Shown in pieces: positions 4,453 through 6,905 of a DNA stretch of 25,678 nucleotides. Source of the DNA: a virus; IMG/VR virus record IMGVR_UViG_3300023184_003513, positions 1-25,678 of that record. The stretch is one strand, 5' to 3'. The translations under genes and the position numbers were made by a program. The notes beneath the pieces were generated by a model. It ran no database searches. It saw only the letters and a list, made by a program, of their open reading frames with translations, and was not told where the DNA came from. The first letter of the stretch is position 1. Each line of letters starts with the position of its first letter.

Positions 4453-4869
4453 ATGAATACTTTAAGGGGAATAATCCAAGAACACCTTTTATTAGAAAAA
4501 AGAATTGCTCAAATTGTACATGAGATACAAACACAATTCAATTTTGAAGTTTCAAGAACGGCCCATTCTTCTGATAGGTCAACAAGACCTGAATTAAAGG
4601 ATTCATACAATCAAAGAGAAATTACGAATTTAGAGGTAAAAGAATTTGTCGCACTATTCATTAGAGAGATTGCGGAAAGAATTGTTTACCGTGAAATTAA
4701 TGATGGTGATGCGTTTGTAATTAAATCAAACAAGTGGGAATTGGCTTTACCAATTATACCGATTCATAATGGGGGTTCAAGTTGGACTTTATTATTCAGT
4801 ACTGCCTTTAGAGAGTCTGAGGGTAATCCGTTTAGAGTTGGTAAAAATCAATTAGTCTTGTGGAGGTAA
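4453..4869 (+). CDS. Putative capsid-internal protein with leader; possible RelE/BECR-like fold
   Basis: A 138-residue protein of uncertain function. It opens with a short helical leader, MNTLRGIIQEHLLLEKR, containing (L/I)xE sites (LLE at 13-15, IQE at 8-10). The leader resembles the T4 capsid-targeting sequence MKTYQEFIAE that sends internal proteins into the prohead. After the leader comes HSSDRSTRP (about residues 38-46), a Glu-rich helix (NQREITNLEVKEFV), and then beta strands (DAFVIKSNKWELALPII, WTLLFSTAFRE). The H-x2-D-R, helix and beta-sheet order recalls small RelE/BECR-type nuclease folds, but no catalytic set can be assigned by eye. It stands before two peptidoglycan-binding proteins with similar leaders. 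Its stop codon overlaps the 3' end of the candidate small RNA on the other strand. Confidence 0.7.
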   Translation: MNTLRGIIQEHLLLEKRIAQIVHEIQTQFNFEVSRTAHSSDRSTRPELKDSYNQREITNLEVKEFVALFIREIAERIVYREINDGDAFVIKSNKWELALPIIPIHNGGSSWTLLFSTAFRESEGNPFRVGKNQLVLWR

Positions 4870-4913
4870 AAAAAGGGGTGGACATTGTATCTTAATCGTC
4901 TTCCATTCCACCC
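4868..4913 (-). terminator. Rho-independent terminator of the candidate small RNA
   Basis: GGGTGGA (4913-4907) pairs with TCCACCC (4882-4876), followed by C and seven Ts (4874-4868) on the minus strand. The U tract exists only in this direction, so it serves the minus-strand RNA and not the plus-strand gene that ends at 4869. Confidence 0.75.
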
Positions 4914-4982
4914 GATAAGTTAGGATTGTTTCGTTCTAACCTATTGTGATTAATTGTATCTAAATTGTTTCCCTTAATCACA
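4868..4982 (-). ncRNA. Candidate small RNA: three abutting hairpins with repeated GAWACAAT loops
   Basis: Read on the minus strand, the stretch folds into three consecutive hairpins. Stem 1 has 9 perfect pairs (4982-4974 with 4953-4945) and a 20-base loop. Stem 2 has 9 pairs with one G-U (4944-4936 with 4923-4915) and a 12-base loop. Stem 3 has 7 pairs (4913-4907 with 4882-4876), a 24-base loop and then seven Ts, giving an intrinsic terminator. The linkers are 0 and 1 base. The motif GAAACAAT or GATACAAT occurs four times (4971-4964, 4960-4953, 4932-4925, 4891-4884), essentially all in loops. A Bacteroidota-type promoter lies immediately upstream. There is no open reading frame of note. I do not recognise the RNA family. 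The start point is inferred from the promoter position. Confidence 0.72.
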
Positions 4983-4985
4983 TTA

Positions 4986-5015
4986 CAAAGATAAGCAAAT
5001 AATTCGAACCTACAA
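4986..5015 (-). promoter_or_regulatory. Bacteroidota-type promoter (TTG-N19-TATCTTTG) for the small RNA
   Basis: On the minus strand TTG (5015-5013) is followed after exactly 19 bases by TATCTTTG (4993-4986). This fits the known Bacteroidota consensus of TTTG or TTG near -33 and TAnnTTTG near -7. Transcription would start at about 4982-4980, at the first base of hairpin 1. It therefore looks like a promoter read by the unmodified host polymerase. Confidence 0.7.
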
Positions 5016-5037
5016 CTTTTTTTTTCAAAAAAACAGA

Positions 5038-5045
5038 TATTTATA
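5038..5045 (+). promoter_or_regulatory. TATTTATA box before the annexin-like/PG-binding gene
   Basis: TATTTATA ends 18 bases before the ATG at 5064, a comfortable promoter distance. It follows a T9 tract (5017-5025) and lies upstream of, and divergent from, the small-RNA promoter. Confidence 0.45.
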
Positions 5046-5063
5046 TATTAAACAGAAATAGGT

Positions 5064-5945
5064 ATGAAAAAATTATATTTTTTAAATGAAGAAGAATCAA
5101 ATAGAATTCTAAATCTTCACAAACAAGCGACTAAAAAACAATATTTATCCGAACAATCTTTACCTAACAAAGAGATGGAGGAACAAATAGATTGGGGTAG
5201 AGTAGGTACTTCAGCGGCGGCGGGAGCGGCGGTAGGTTCTTTAGGTCTCGGTGTTACCGCGATTCCAGGGGCGATTATTGGTGCAGGTGCATCGATATTA
5301 AGTCAAGCGTTTGGTGGTGCGGCGTCTTTAGCAGGTGCTAAGAAAATATTAGACGCCTGTAACGTTAAAGGTGCGGTTGGTCCAGCTCAAATGACAAGAC
5401 AACAGTTAAATGCGATTGCTGACGGAATTAATACTGCGATTGATGGTATAGGGACTGATGAAGATGCGATTAAAGCAAATTTATCAAAAATACAAACTAT
5501 TCCTGATTTATGTGGTATGGCGACTACCTATGAAACAAGACACGGTGAAAGTTTATTTGACGCTATTGATGGTGATATCGATTCTGCAGGACAATGGAAA
5601 ACATACGTGTTTTTACCATTATTAGACGCATATGAAAATAGTAAAGAAATAGGTGAGAAAGCGGCAGCGGCAGCAGCGGCGGCAGCGGCATCAGGAACTA
5701 CTTCAGGAACTACATCAGGAACTACTTCAGGAACTACTTCAGGTACAACAGGTACTACGGTTACAACAGGTGTTGCTAAAAAAGGTGTGGCGACTAACTT
5801 ACAACCTAAAACCAAAACAATACAATCTACTTTAGGTGTGTCACAAACAGGTACGATGGACCAAGCAACGATTGACGCGTTAATTACTAAACTAAATGGT
5901 GGAGGAAACCCTCAACAATCTACTTCAGGTAGTAATGTTCAATAA
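5064..5945 (+). CDS. Leader-bearing protein with glycine-rich segment, annexin-like repeat and peptidoglycan-binding domain
   Basis: A 293-residue modular protein. Residues 1-30 form a charged leader (MKKLYFLNEEESNRILNLHK, ending YLSE), with a probable T4-type prohead-protease cut after LSE. Residues 48-90 are Gly/Ala-rich and hydrophobic with repeated small residues (glycine-zipper-like), which could insert into a membrane. Residues 117-175 resemble one annexin repeat (DGIGTDEDAI, then a helix and GESLFDAIDGDIDSAG). A ten-Ala run (200-209) and TSGT repeats make a linker. Residues 249-278 (IQSTLGVSQTGTMDQATIDAL) resemble a PG_binding_1 domain. The next gene has the same leader type and a clearer PG-binding domain. 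The arrangement suggests a packaged protein that is ejected into the cell envelope. No enzymatic motif is seen. The annexin call is by pattern only. Confidence 0.75.
   Translation: MKKLYFLNEEESNRILNLHKQATKKQYLSEQSLPNKEMEEQIDWGRVGTSAAAGAAVGSLGLGVTAIPGAIIGAGASILSQAFGGAASLAGAKKILDACNVKGAVGPAQMTRQQLNAIADGINTAIDGIGTDEDAIKANLSKIQTIPDLCGMATTYETRHGESLFDAIDGDIDSAGQWKTYVFLPLLDAYENSKEIGEKAAAAAAAAAASGTTSGTTSGTTSGTTSGTTGTTVTTGVAKKGVATNLQPKTKTIQSTLGVSQTGTMDQATIDALITKLNGGGNPQQSTSGSNVQ
5661..5750 (+). repeat. Coding repeats: Ala10 run and five 12-bp TSGT-type units
   Basis: Ten GCN codons (5661-5690, mixed GCG and GCA) encode poly-Ala. Five 12-base units based on TCAGGAACTACT follow (5691-5750) and encode Ser-Gly-Thr-Thr. 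Both lie in frame inside the linker between the annexin-like and PG-binding parts, so this is a protein linker and not a mobile or regulatory repeat. Near-identical units are prone to copy-number change. Confidence 0.9.
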
Positions 5946-5975: not shown

Positions 5976-6305
5976 ATGAAAAGATTAATTATAACCGAAA
6001 GTGAAAGAGCAAAAATTCTTAATATGCACGGGTTTAAAAAAATGTTATCTGAATCGACAATACAAGATGTACAAACTTTACTAAATAGTAAATTTAGTGC
6101 GGGGTTAACCGCTGATGGTAAATATGGTCCTAAAACCGCTGCGGCAATTGAAAAAGCTTTAGGTATTGGTGGAACACCTGCGGGAACTTCGACAGGAACA
6201 CCTGCGGGAACTACAACAGGAACACCTGCGGGAACTACAACAGGAACACCAAATGCTGGCGATATTGCTGGCGGAGACAAGGGTGAACCAAGTGACGTAG
6301 GTTAA
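5976..6305 (+). CDS. Small leader-bearing peptidoglycan-binding protein with Gly-Thr-Pro tail
   Basis: A 109-residue protein. Residues 1-26 (MKRLIITESERAKILNMHGF, ending KKMLSE) align with the leader of the gene before it: MK+L, an acidic turn, ILN(L/M)H, a Lys-rich turn and LSE. Residues 29-62 (IQDVQTLLNSKF, LTADGKYGPKTAAAIEKAL) are a good PG_binding_1 domain with the usual DGKYGPKT turn. The rest is a low-complexity Gly-Thr-Pro-Ala tail. Binding to peptidoglycan is well supported. Packaging into the head and processing after E26 is inferred. Its stop overlaps, tail to tail, the stop of the methylglyoxal synthase gene by 4 bases, leaving no room for a terminator. Confidence 0.8.
   Translation: MKRLIITESERAKILNMHGFKKMLSESTIQDVQTLLNSKFSAGLTADGKYGPKTAAAIEKALGIGGTPAGTSTGTPAGTTTGTPAGTTTGTPNAGDIAGGDKGEPSDVG
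6171..6250 (+). repeat. 24-bp coding repeat (GTPAGTTT units)
   Basis: Three 24-base units (6171-6194, 6195-6218, 6219-6242) and a partial fourth (6243-6250) encode repeats of Gly-Thr-Pro-Ala-Gly-Thr-x-Thr in the C-terminal tail. The second and third units are identical, which points to recent duplication. Confidence 0.92.
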
Positions 6306-6682
6306 AAAACAATACAATCAATTAATCTACTTGCCGTAGAGTAATTTGTTGCTAAAGGAATGTCGTGAACATTACATATCCTTAATAACATACTAACATC
6401 CACTTGATGTGGATGAACTTCCAAGGGGTCGATGAAGAATATAACTACATCGACCTCTTTGTTTACAATCATTGACGCAATCTGAGCATCACCCCCCATT
6501 GGTCCACTAAACATTGTTCTAACCTTTTGTAGACCCGCATGAATTAAATGTTTACCTGTAGTTCCCGTGGCAATTACCTCAACATTTTTTGATGTGAAAA
6601 AAGGGATTCGTTTCATTACAAACGATACCATATCGGCCTTCTTACCGTCATGAGCAATTAACGCAATTCTAATGTTGCTCAT
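6302..6682 (-). CDS. mgsA: Methylglyoxal synthase
   Basis: The enzyme converts dihydroxyacetone phosphate to methylglyoxal and phosphate, a bypass of lower glycolysis. From MSNIRIALIAHDGKK the 126 residues follow bacterial MgsA throughout: the AHD start, the phosphate loop ATGTTG (38-43), SGPMGGD (59-65), and FFIDPLEVHPHQVDV (82-96). D65, D85, H92 and D95 correspond to E. coli D71, D91, H98 and D101, so catalysis is probably intact. It is shorter than the E. coli enzyme (152 residues), lacking the C-terminal helix. An in-frame ATG at 6700 would add MKNLPK; 6682 is preferred because the sequence matches the family from there. It overlaps the preceding gene by 14 bases. A metabolic enzyme among virion-type genes is unusual. 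Confidence 0.93.
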   Translation of the reverse strand: MSNIRIALIAHDGKKADMVSFVMKRIPFFTSKNVEVIATGTTGKHLIHAGLQKVRTMFSGPMGGDAQIASMIVNKEVDVVIFFIDPLEVHPHQVDVSMLLRICNVHDIPLATNYSTASRLIDCIVF

Positions 6683-6905
6683 CTTGGGTAGGTTCTTCAA
6701 TTTTTGACAAGGTTCTAATACATTTTGAGATTACTTCTGTTTCACCCAAAGAATATACACCCGATTCGTGAGCGTACTTAACCGCCCGAATTAAAAAGTA
6801 TATTGAGGTGTCCTTATCCATTGTTTGTAATATCACCTCCAAATGGTCCTCATTTAAAATAGGTATTGAGTTAAATAAATTTCCAAATAGTTTTTGTTCT
6901 TCCAT
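6669..6905 (-). CDS. Small hypothetical protein upstream of mgsA
   Basis: A 78-residue, acidic, mostly helical protein (MEEQKLFGNLFNSIPILNED, later IYFLIRAVKYAHESGVYSLGETEVISKCI). I recognise no family. It overlaps the methylglyoxal synthase gene by 14 bases, so the two are probably co-transcribed and translationally coupled. A TATAAATA sequence, identical to the T4 late-promoter core when read on the minus strand, lies 15 bases upstream of its ATG (6928-6921). No leader of the (L/I)xE type is evident. Confidence 0.65.
   Translation of the reverse strand: MEEQKLFGNLFNSIPILNEDHLEVILQTMDKDTSIYFLIRAVKYAHESGVYSLGETEVISKCIRTLSKIEEPTQDEQH

Follow-up and report, generated by a model that had tools for sequence, protein, structure and literature searches.

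Phages of Bacteroidetes-type bacteria carry a previously unlisted family of small RNAs, known only from viruses, in which a hairpin loop of conserved sequence is displayed on stems that change freely and stay paired through compensating substitutions. These RNAs are preceded by recognizable promoters, and their free-standing members nearly always end head-on against homologs of a gene for a 138-aa protein, while single hairpins of the same kind stand in front of GOLLD and of tRNA arrays. The RNA family and its linkage to the gene can be regarded as virtually certain. A search of the open-access literature did not find the loop sequence printed in a phage context.

Layout of the element

The window, i.e., the whole stretch of DNA analysed, comprises 25,678 nt of IMG/VR record IMGVR_UViG_3300023184_003513, and the RNA locus occupies positions 4868-5015 on its minus strand. 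The features of the locus and of the gene that faces it are as follows.

4986..5015, minus strand: putative Bacteroidetes-type promoter of the small RNA, read directly (TTG at 5015-5013, N19, TATCTTTG at 4993-4986)
4868..4982, minus strand: small RNA gene of about 113-115 nt, its start placed by promoter spacing and its end by the T7 tract, with fold and homologs as basis
4945..4982, minus strand: hairpin 1, 9 bp with a 20-nt loop, stem TGTGATTAA/TTAATCACA
4915..4944, minus strand: hairpin 2, 9 bp with the 12-nt loop AACGAAACAATC
4876..4913, minus strand: hairpin 3, 7 bp with a 24-nt loop containing GGAAG and the conserved core ACGATTAAGATAC at 4899-4887
4868..4874, minus strand: T7 tract, putative intrinsic terminator tail, sharing 2 nt with the convergent gene's stop codon
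4453..4869, plus strand: convergent partner gene, 138 aa, with a predicted RelE/RegB-like fold, an invariant H38 and the N-terminus LRxLIKExLLLEKRI

An earlier, sequence-only reading of this DNA had described promoter boxes, three stems of 9, 9 and 7 pairs and a T7 tract on the minus strand, and both this architecture and its coordinates check out. Hairpins 1 and 2 abut, and a 1-nt linker separates hairpins 2 and 3. The loop core of hairpin 1, ACAATTTAGATAC at 4968-4956, is a G-to-A variant (ACAATT) of ACGATT, and the loop of hairpin 2 is less conserved, this hairpin being present in many relatives and absent in others (e.g., L095, L144, and L147). Since a U-run comes after hairpin 3, the latter probably acts as the terminator stem as well.

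The RNA had also been called undescribed, and this agrees with Rfam 15, in which no family covers the hairpins of the window or the related hairpins at gathering score, a result that leaves an undescribed family possible. The sole Rfam hit in the window is to a eukaryotic microRNA model, far under the cut-off. The single-sequence folding energy of the element is unremarkable (z -1.5) and uninformative taken alone; at the level of sequence it is conservation, not folding energy, that proves the RNA's reality. Blastn hits to the flank at window positions 5035-5146 were considered as RNA homology and rejected, as they actually represent the conserved start of the next gene.

A conserved loop on variable stems

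Across relatives, the conserved unit is a hairpin with a variable, compensating stem and the loop GGA(N0-3)ACGAUUHAGAUAC(A/U)(A/G). Among 94 distinct units, position H is C in 43, T in 29, A in 22 and G in none, and GGA lies within six bases ahead of the core in 78. Nine close relatives keep the entire RNA at 89-95% identity; in distant ones, the loop GGA..ACGATTHAGATACA(A) is common to hairpins 1 and 3, and hairpin 2 is variable or absent.

The motif originally proposed from the window was GAWACAAT. All four of its copies lie where they had been reported, and with only 7 occurrences on both strands of the window against 4.7 expected, the clustering of four within 88 nt on a single strand is far beyond chance, but GAWACAAT is not the unit conserved across relatives. 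What the relatives keep is the loop ACGATTHAGATAC, carried by hairpins 1 and 3. In hairpin 1, GAAACAAT represents a local variation on GAAACGAT; in hairpin 2, it is kept in close relatives only. The copy of GATTAAG in stem 1 is a coincidence. The broader idea of a repeated loop motif displayed on changing stems was borne out in the relatives.

Stem sequences differ entirely from unit to unit. A set of 19 units showed both-side changes at all six stem pairs, and because these units were chosen for having stems, their 100% pairing is partly by construction. An unbiased stem test was made at loci selected via the neighbouring protein, where 19 of 20 distinct flanks formed a stem better than shuffled sequences (p<0.05; Fisher about 2e-21); the same test was passed by 5 of 36 bacterial chance matches, two of them from locus L238. 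The sequence-only reading had put itself at risk on stems that do not covary and loops that are not kept, and with this outcome at the protein-selected loci, together with the kept loops, the check came out in its favour.

Copy number, promoters and distribution

The units occur in one, two or three copies and take two forms, either free-standing RNAs or single hairpins at promoters before GOLLD or tRNA arrays. The commonest arrangement has two motif copies, mostly with a further hairpin in between; three tandem copies were found in L145 and L215, and single copies in many contigs. TTTG, in the form TAnnTTTG, is the promoter element of Bacteroidetes. A TA..TTTG box ends exactly 13 nt before the GGAAAC of loop 1 in 28 of 30 two-motif relatives, a spacing from which the transcript should start with hairpin 1. 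The box is present within 110 nt upstream at all of 71 gene-selected RNA loci (71/71), and a T-run (U-run) follows the last motif at 62 of the 71. In six contigs (L018, L019, L167, L179, L160, and L331), hairpins 2 and 3 alone make up the RNA, and in the last two of these an outer stem, AAGTAG/CTACTT, encloses both hairpins as a three-way junction.

The loop pattern gave 36 hits in 84,980 bacterial and archaeal genomes, nearly all stemless and in unrelated contexts, and its core gave 15 hits in 395 Bacteroidota genomes, about the chance expectation. A covariance-model search of 299 genomes, run with strict filters and no positive control, returned no match. Only one hit in a bacterial assembly, L238, is real; it lies on a 13-kb contig of a metagenome-assembled genome, and this contig may itself be viral. 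A host origin of the motif was considered and rejected on its chance-level frequency in Bacteroidota. Viral contigs, on the other hand, yielded at least 119 hits to the loop pattern, some of them arising by chance in coding sequence. The loop is present in one to four copies in phage records of 13-385 kb, in which the reversed pattern is almost absent. As to named phages, the hairpins were found in LR745206 only and are absent from Flavobacterium phage immuto, Elizabethkingia phage TCUEAP1, and LR756502.

The carrier phages are T4-like: among the window's products is a Gp23 major capsid protein (PF07068), whose named relatives include that of Flavobacterium phage immuto (43% over part of the protein). 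Another product, 132 aa long and encoded at 6302-6700 on the minus strand, contains an MGS-like domain (PF02142, 1.7e-16) and may be a phage methylglyoxal synthase.

Hairpins upstream of GOLLD and tRNA arrays

A single hairpin lies right behind a promoter upstream of GOLLD in L285, L292, L296, L297, L298, L182, L325, L326, L328, L333, L334, L156, L177, L189, L191, L207, and L301. In over ten phage contigs, the hairpin is separated from the Rfam match for GOLLD (RF02032), on the same strand, by 0.52-0.9 kb, usually by 0.52-0.6 kb. Other hairpins are placed upstream of tRNA clusters (L289, L142/L299, L190, and L329). GOLLD forms nanocages and is frequently close to tRNA islands (PMC12286853).

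The hairpin and GOLLD share contigs and strand, but the hairpin is distinct from GOLLD and has a promoter of its own. RF02032 has no match in the window, and the related hairpins fall outside the GOLLD matches. The free-standing RNA and a hairpin ahead of GOLLD can share one phage genome (e.g., G005 and G008). GOLLD occurs without the hairpin in G031, G032, G033, and LR756502, where it has the downstream promoter alone, in most cases with a boxA-like sequence; the hairpin is thus an optional addition.

Two further observations concern these regions. L292 has, at 1927-2219, two successive leaders of promoter, hairpin and boxA-like sequence (GTTCTTTGA) before one GOLLD, and in other GOLLD genes a boxA-like sequence comes after the downstream promoter. 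Phage tmRNA genes (RF00023) lie on the opposite strand at about 1.5 kb or less from GOLLD in L285, L325, L326, L328, and L334, and at about 3 kb, again on the opposite strand, in L156.

Linkage to the convergent gene

Among 80 contigs selected by the 138-aa protein alone, the strand opposite the gene carries the motif no more than 260 nt from the gene's 3' end in 71 and the motif variant ACTATTCAGATAC in 2 more. In the other 7, another structured RNA takes its place; no motif was found on the gene's other side at these 80 loci. The substitute RNA (L376, L377, L378, L380, L381, L395, and L404) lies just 3' of the gene on the opposite strand, is about 140 nt long and conserved (GGGTTGAACCGAGATTACCC ... 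CTCCCCYYTTGGTACCARRGGGG TTTTATTTTT), and has a visible promoter in most cases. It has no match in Rfam.

The gene and the RNA have been found together near the capsid gene and also inside tRNA arrays (L147, L155, L166, and L185), which indicates that the pair travels as a unit. Hairpin and gene are both present in the large records LR745206, G033, and G004, and both absent in LR756502, G031, G032, and immuto, while G001 combines the hairpin with a remote homolog of the protein (E 0.001). Separations also occur. The RNA is found without the gene in L011, L018, L019, L095, L144, and L167, and the gene without an adjacent RNA in G018 and LR745206; G034 and G002, possibly fragments, have the hairpin only. 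Many single-hairpin contigs lack the gene as well, but these contigs are fragments.

At most of 23 loci, a TATTTATA box begins 12-13 nt ahead of the 138-aa gene's start codon, against a background of 0.05 per 60 nt, and in the window the box precedes genes 1972+, 4453+, 5064+, 6951+, and 8750-. Read on the complementary strand, the box is TATAAATA, the late box of T4, and it could be either the promoter of a near-leaderless mRNA or an initiation element. Window ORFs 4453+, 5064+, 5976+, and 8124- also have a common N-terminal I/L-x-E pattern (e.g., LRxLIKExLLLEKRI and MKRLIITESERAKILNMHGFKKMLSE), which, judged from the pattern, could be a capsid-targeting peptide of the T4 type, cut by a gp21-like protease.

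Possible nature of the 138-aa protein

An AlphaFold2 model built with 30 homologs of the 138-aa protein reached pLDDT 76.8 and pTM 0.68. Foldseek searches with this model gave no significant match in the PDB, and among viral models (BFVD) they gave an annotated phage site-specific RNA endonuclease (probability 0.97) and uncharacterised phage proteins. When the PDB candidates from Foldseek were realigned, RelE1 scored Z 5.1 (rmsd 3.2 over 71 residues), with HigB, RelE, YoeB, and BrnT among the best, and T4 RegB scored Z 3.6 (rmsd 5.1 over 96 residues); similar Z values were obtained for the unrelated folds of TrmO, PanK, DnaK, and YeaZ. The remote homolog from G001, modelled separately (pLDDT 65.8), aligned to RelE, HigB, YafQ, ParE, and RegB, mixed with DnaK and YeaZ. 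RelE, HigB, YoeB, and RegB thus recur among the best alignments of two models, at Z values of only 3.5-5.1, and on these models the protein may be RNA-cutting and RelE/RegB-like.

Profile comparison of the 138-aa family with RegB was not significant (probability 0.3-0.5%), no family member matches Pfam REGB_T4 (PF10715), and no second invariant histidine exists among the homologs, RegB having the catalytic pair H48 and H68. The best hhalign alignment, which is not significant, pairs the invariant H38 with catalytic H48. In LR745206 (L451), a 363-aa S1-domain protein (PF00575, 4e-22) is encoded at 1219-2310 on the minus strand, convergent with the 138-aa homolog. In T4, S1 is the stimulating cofactor of RegB, whose strong sites are GG*AGRAYARAA (PMC3014915). 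The two systems are alike in the predicted fold of the protein (like RelE/YoeB/RegB), in belonging to T4-like phages, in the S1-domain gene beside one homolog, and in a GGA that precedes a purine-rich stretch, here in the hairpin loop. They differ in that the 138-aa family has no significant sequence similarity to RegB, no PF10715 match and no invariant second histidine. The S1 neighbour, the pairing of H38 with H48, and the likeness of GGA are suggestive of kinship with RegB, not proof of it. T4 RegB has no known dedicated RNA partner.

Proposed mechanism and alternatives

By analogy with established RNA-protein systems, a loop whose sequence is fixed while its stem changes freely marks a site recognized by a protein: the loop stays fixed and the stems change, so it is the loop that a protein would read, and the stem would merely hold up the sequence-specific loop GGA..ACGAUUHAGAUACA(A). 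The reader would most likely be the product of the convergent 138-aa gene, a better partner candidate than any known host protein. An RNA made from a host-type promoter and presenting two or three loop copies would restrain this protein as its decoy, inhibitor or preferred substrate, and the hairpin at the 5' end of transcripts running into GOLLD or tRNA arrays would be a site where the protein binds or cuts. The analysis demonstrates the RNA family with its conserved loop and compensating stems, the promoters, the linkage to the gene and the placement by GOLLD and tRNAs. From these we infer transcription of the RNA and recognition of its loop by a protein, and further that this reader is the 138-aa protein and that the latter is a nuclease; the mechanism as a whole, with a RelE/RegB-like protein reading the loop, the RNA as its decoy, inhibitor or substrate, and the leader hairpins as its sites, is tentative, with a chance somewhat short of even.

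Next in order of probability comes the possibility, which we consider rather unlikely, that the hairpins are decoys for a host protein, be it an RNA-binding regulator or a defence protein that senses or cuts RNA, and that the convergent gene merely shares an accessory slot. A motif restricted to viruses, a host-type promoter and free-standing multi-copy RNAs would all fit such a role, as would the siting by tRNA arrays, tmRNA, and GOLLD, which are likewise accessory RNA regions, and the fact that the slot can hold a different RNA. However, the linkage to the gene is far above what a shared slot predicts and the pair recurs in tRNA arrays, and no titrated host transcript with the motif was found, its frequency being at chance level in the 395 Bacteroidota genomes. 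The sequence-only reading had proposed a decoy of the CsrB/RsmY type. The phage RNA does resemble these in having motif copies in the loops of abutting hairpins, its own promoter and terminator, and GGA in most loops, but it differs in having about 13 more fixed loop bases, loops of ~20 nt, and a convergent gene partner. GGA, as in loop sites of the ANGGA type, occurs in 78/94 units, yet the invariant portion is ACGATTHAGATAC. Titration of CsrA in particular found no support: CsrA (PF02599) was found in 0/60 genomes of Flavobacteriaceae, the assumed host family, in a search of host genomes with positive controls.

A leader function is more improbable still. The hairpin would here sit at the 5' end of stable-RNA transcripts and bring in a transcription or processing factor, like boxB or the HK022 put elements with boxA, and the free-standing RNAs would be a truncated or titrating form. 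In the leaders of GOLLD and tRNAs, the hairpin begins directly behind the promoter, followed in L292 by the boxA-like GTTCTTTGA. Nevertheless, GOLLD of relatives has a promoter, a small hairpin and a boxA-like sequence without this hairpin, which is therefore optional; where the hairpin accompanies tRNAs, it often terminates in a T-run ahead of a second promoter; and the free-standing RNA of the window has no downstream genes on the same strand. Very little probability attaches to a multi-site antisense RNA whose loops pair with phage or host messages, as the earlier reading had alternatively suggested. Conserved single-stranded loops of about 20 nt would suit pairing, but 7-mers complementary to the loops number 101 around phage ORF starts versus 245 expected, GOLLD has no consistent complement, and one loop position varies freely among A, C, and U. 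Least credible of all, and hardly to be expected, is an RNA anti-CRISPR (Racr) that mimics a CRISPR repeat. A small viral hairpin beside a promoter, often in single copy, recalls the solitary repeat units of that system (PMC10651486), from which the motif differs in belonging to no CRISPR array: across the 84,980 genomes the loop pattern gave only single matches, at about chance level, none in a repeat array. Mimicry of 16S rRNA was also considered, as the loop resembles the h24/790 loop GGATTAGATACCC, and was rejected because 25 of 100 shuffled loops align to 16S equally well.

Like the ToxN-ToxI type III systems and the phage pseudo-ToxI decoys, the phage pair combines a small RNA of repeated units with a gene for a small RNase-like protein. 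The phage pair is convergent and its units are hairpins, whereas ToxI, an array of 36-nt pseudoknot repeats, precedes the toxin within a single operon. The suggested fold of the 138-aa protein is, we presume, RelE-like and not ToxN-like. On present evidence, the RNA resembles a protein-titrating RNA or a type III antitoxin in its working and is a member of neither group.

Significance

An abundant RNA family of environmental phages, absent from the libraries and with a loop fixed enough to call for a specific reader, can now be discussed together with a named and testable candidate for that reader. Its ties to the phage tRNA arrays and to the giant RNA GOLLD, whose function is unknown, provide a first handle on the control of both. 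With regard to the preferred mechanism, in which the 138-aa protein reads the loop, its boldest form is a new phage RNA-protein control pair: a RelE/RegB-like nuclease would be held or guided by a convergent, multi-hairpin and exchangeable RNA, and the hairpin-marked GOLLD and tRNA transcripts would belong to one regulon. This scenario is unlikely. If the partner is a nuclease, the pair would represent a RegB-like system of mRNA control with a dedicated RNA partner.
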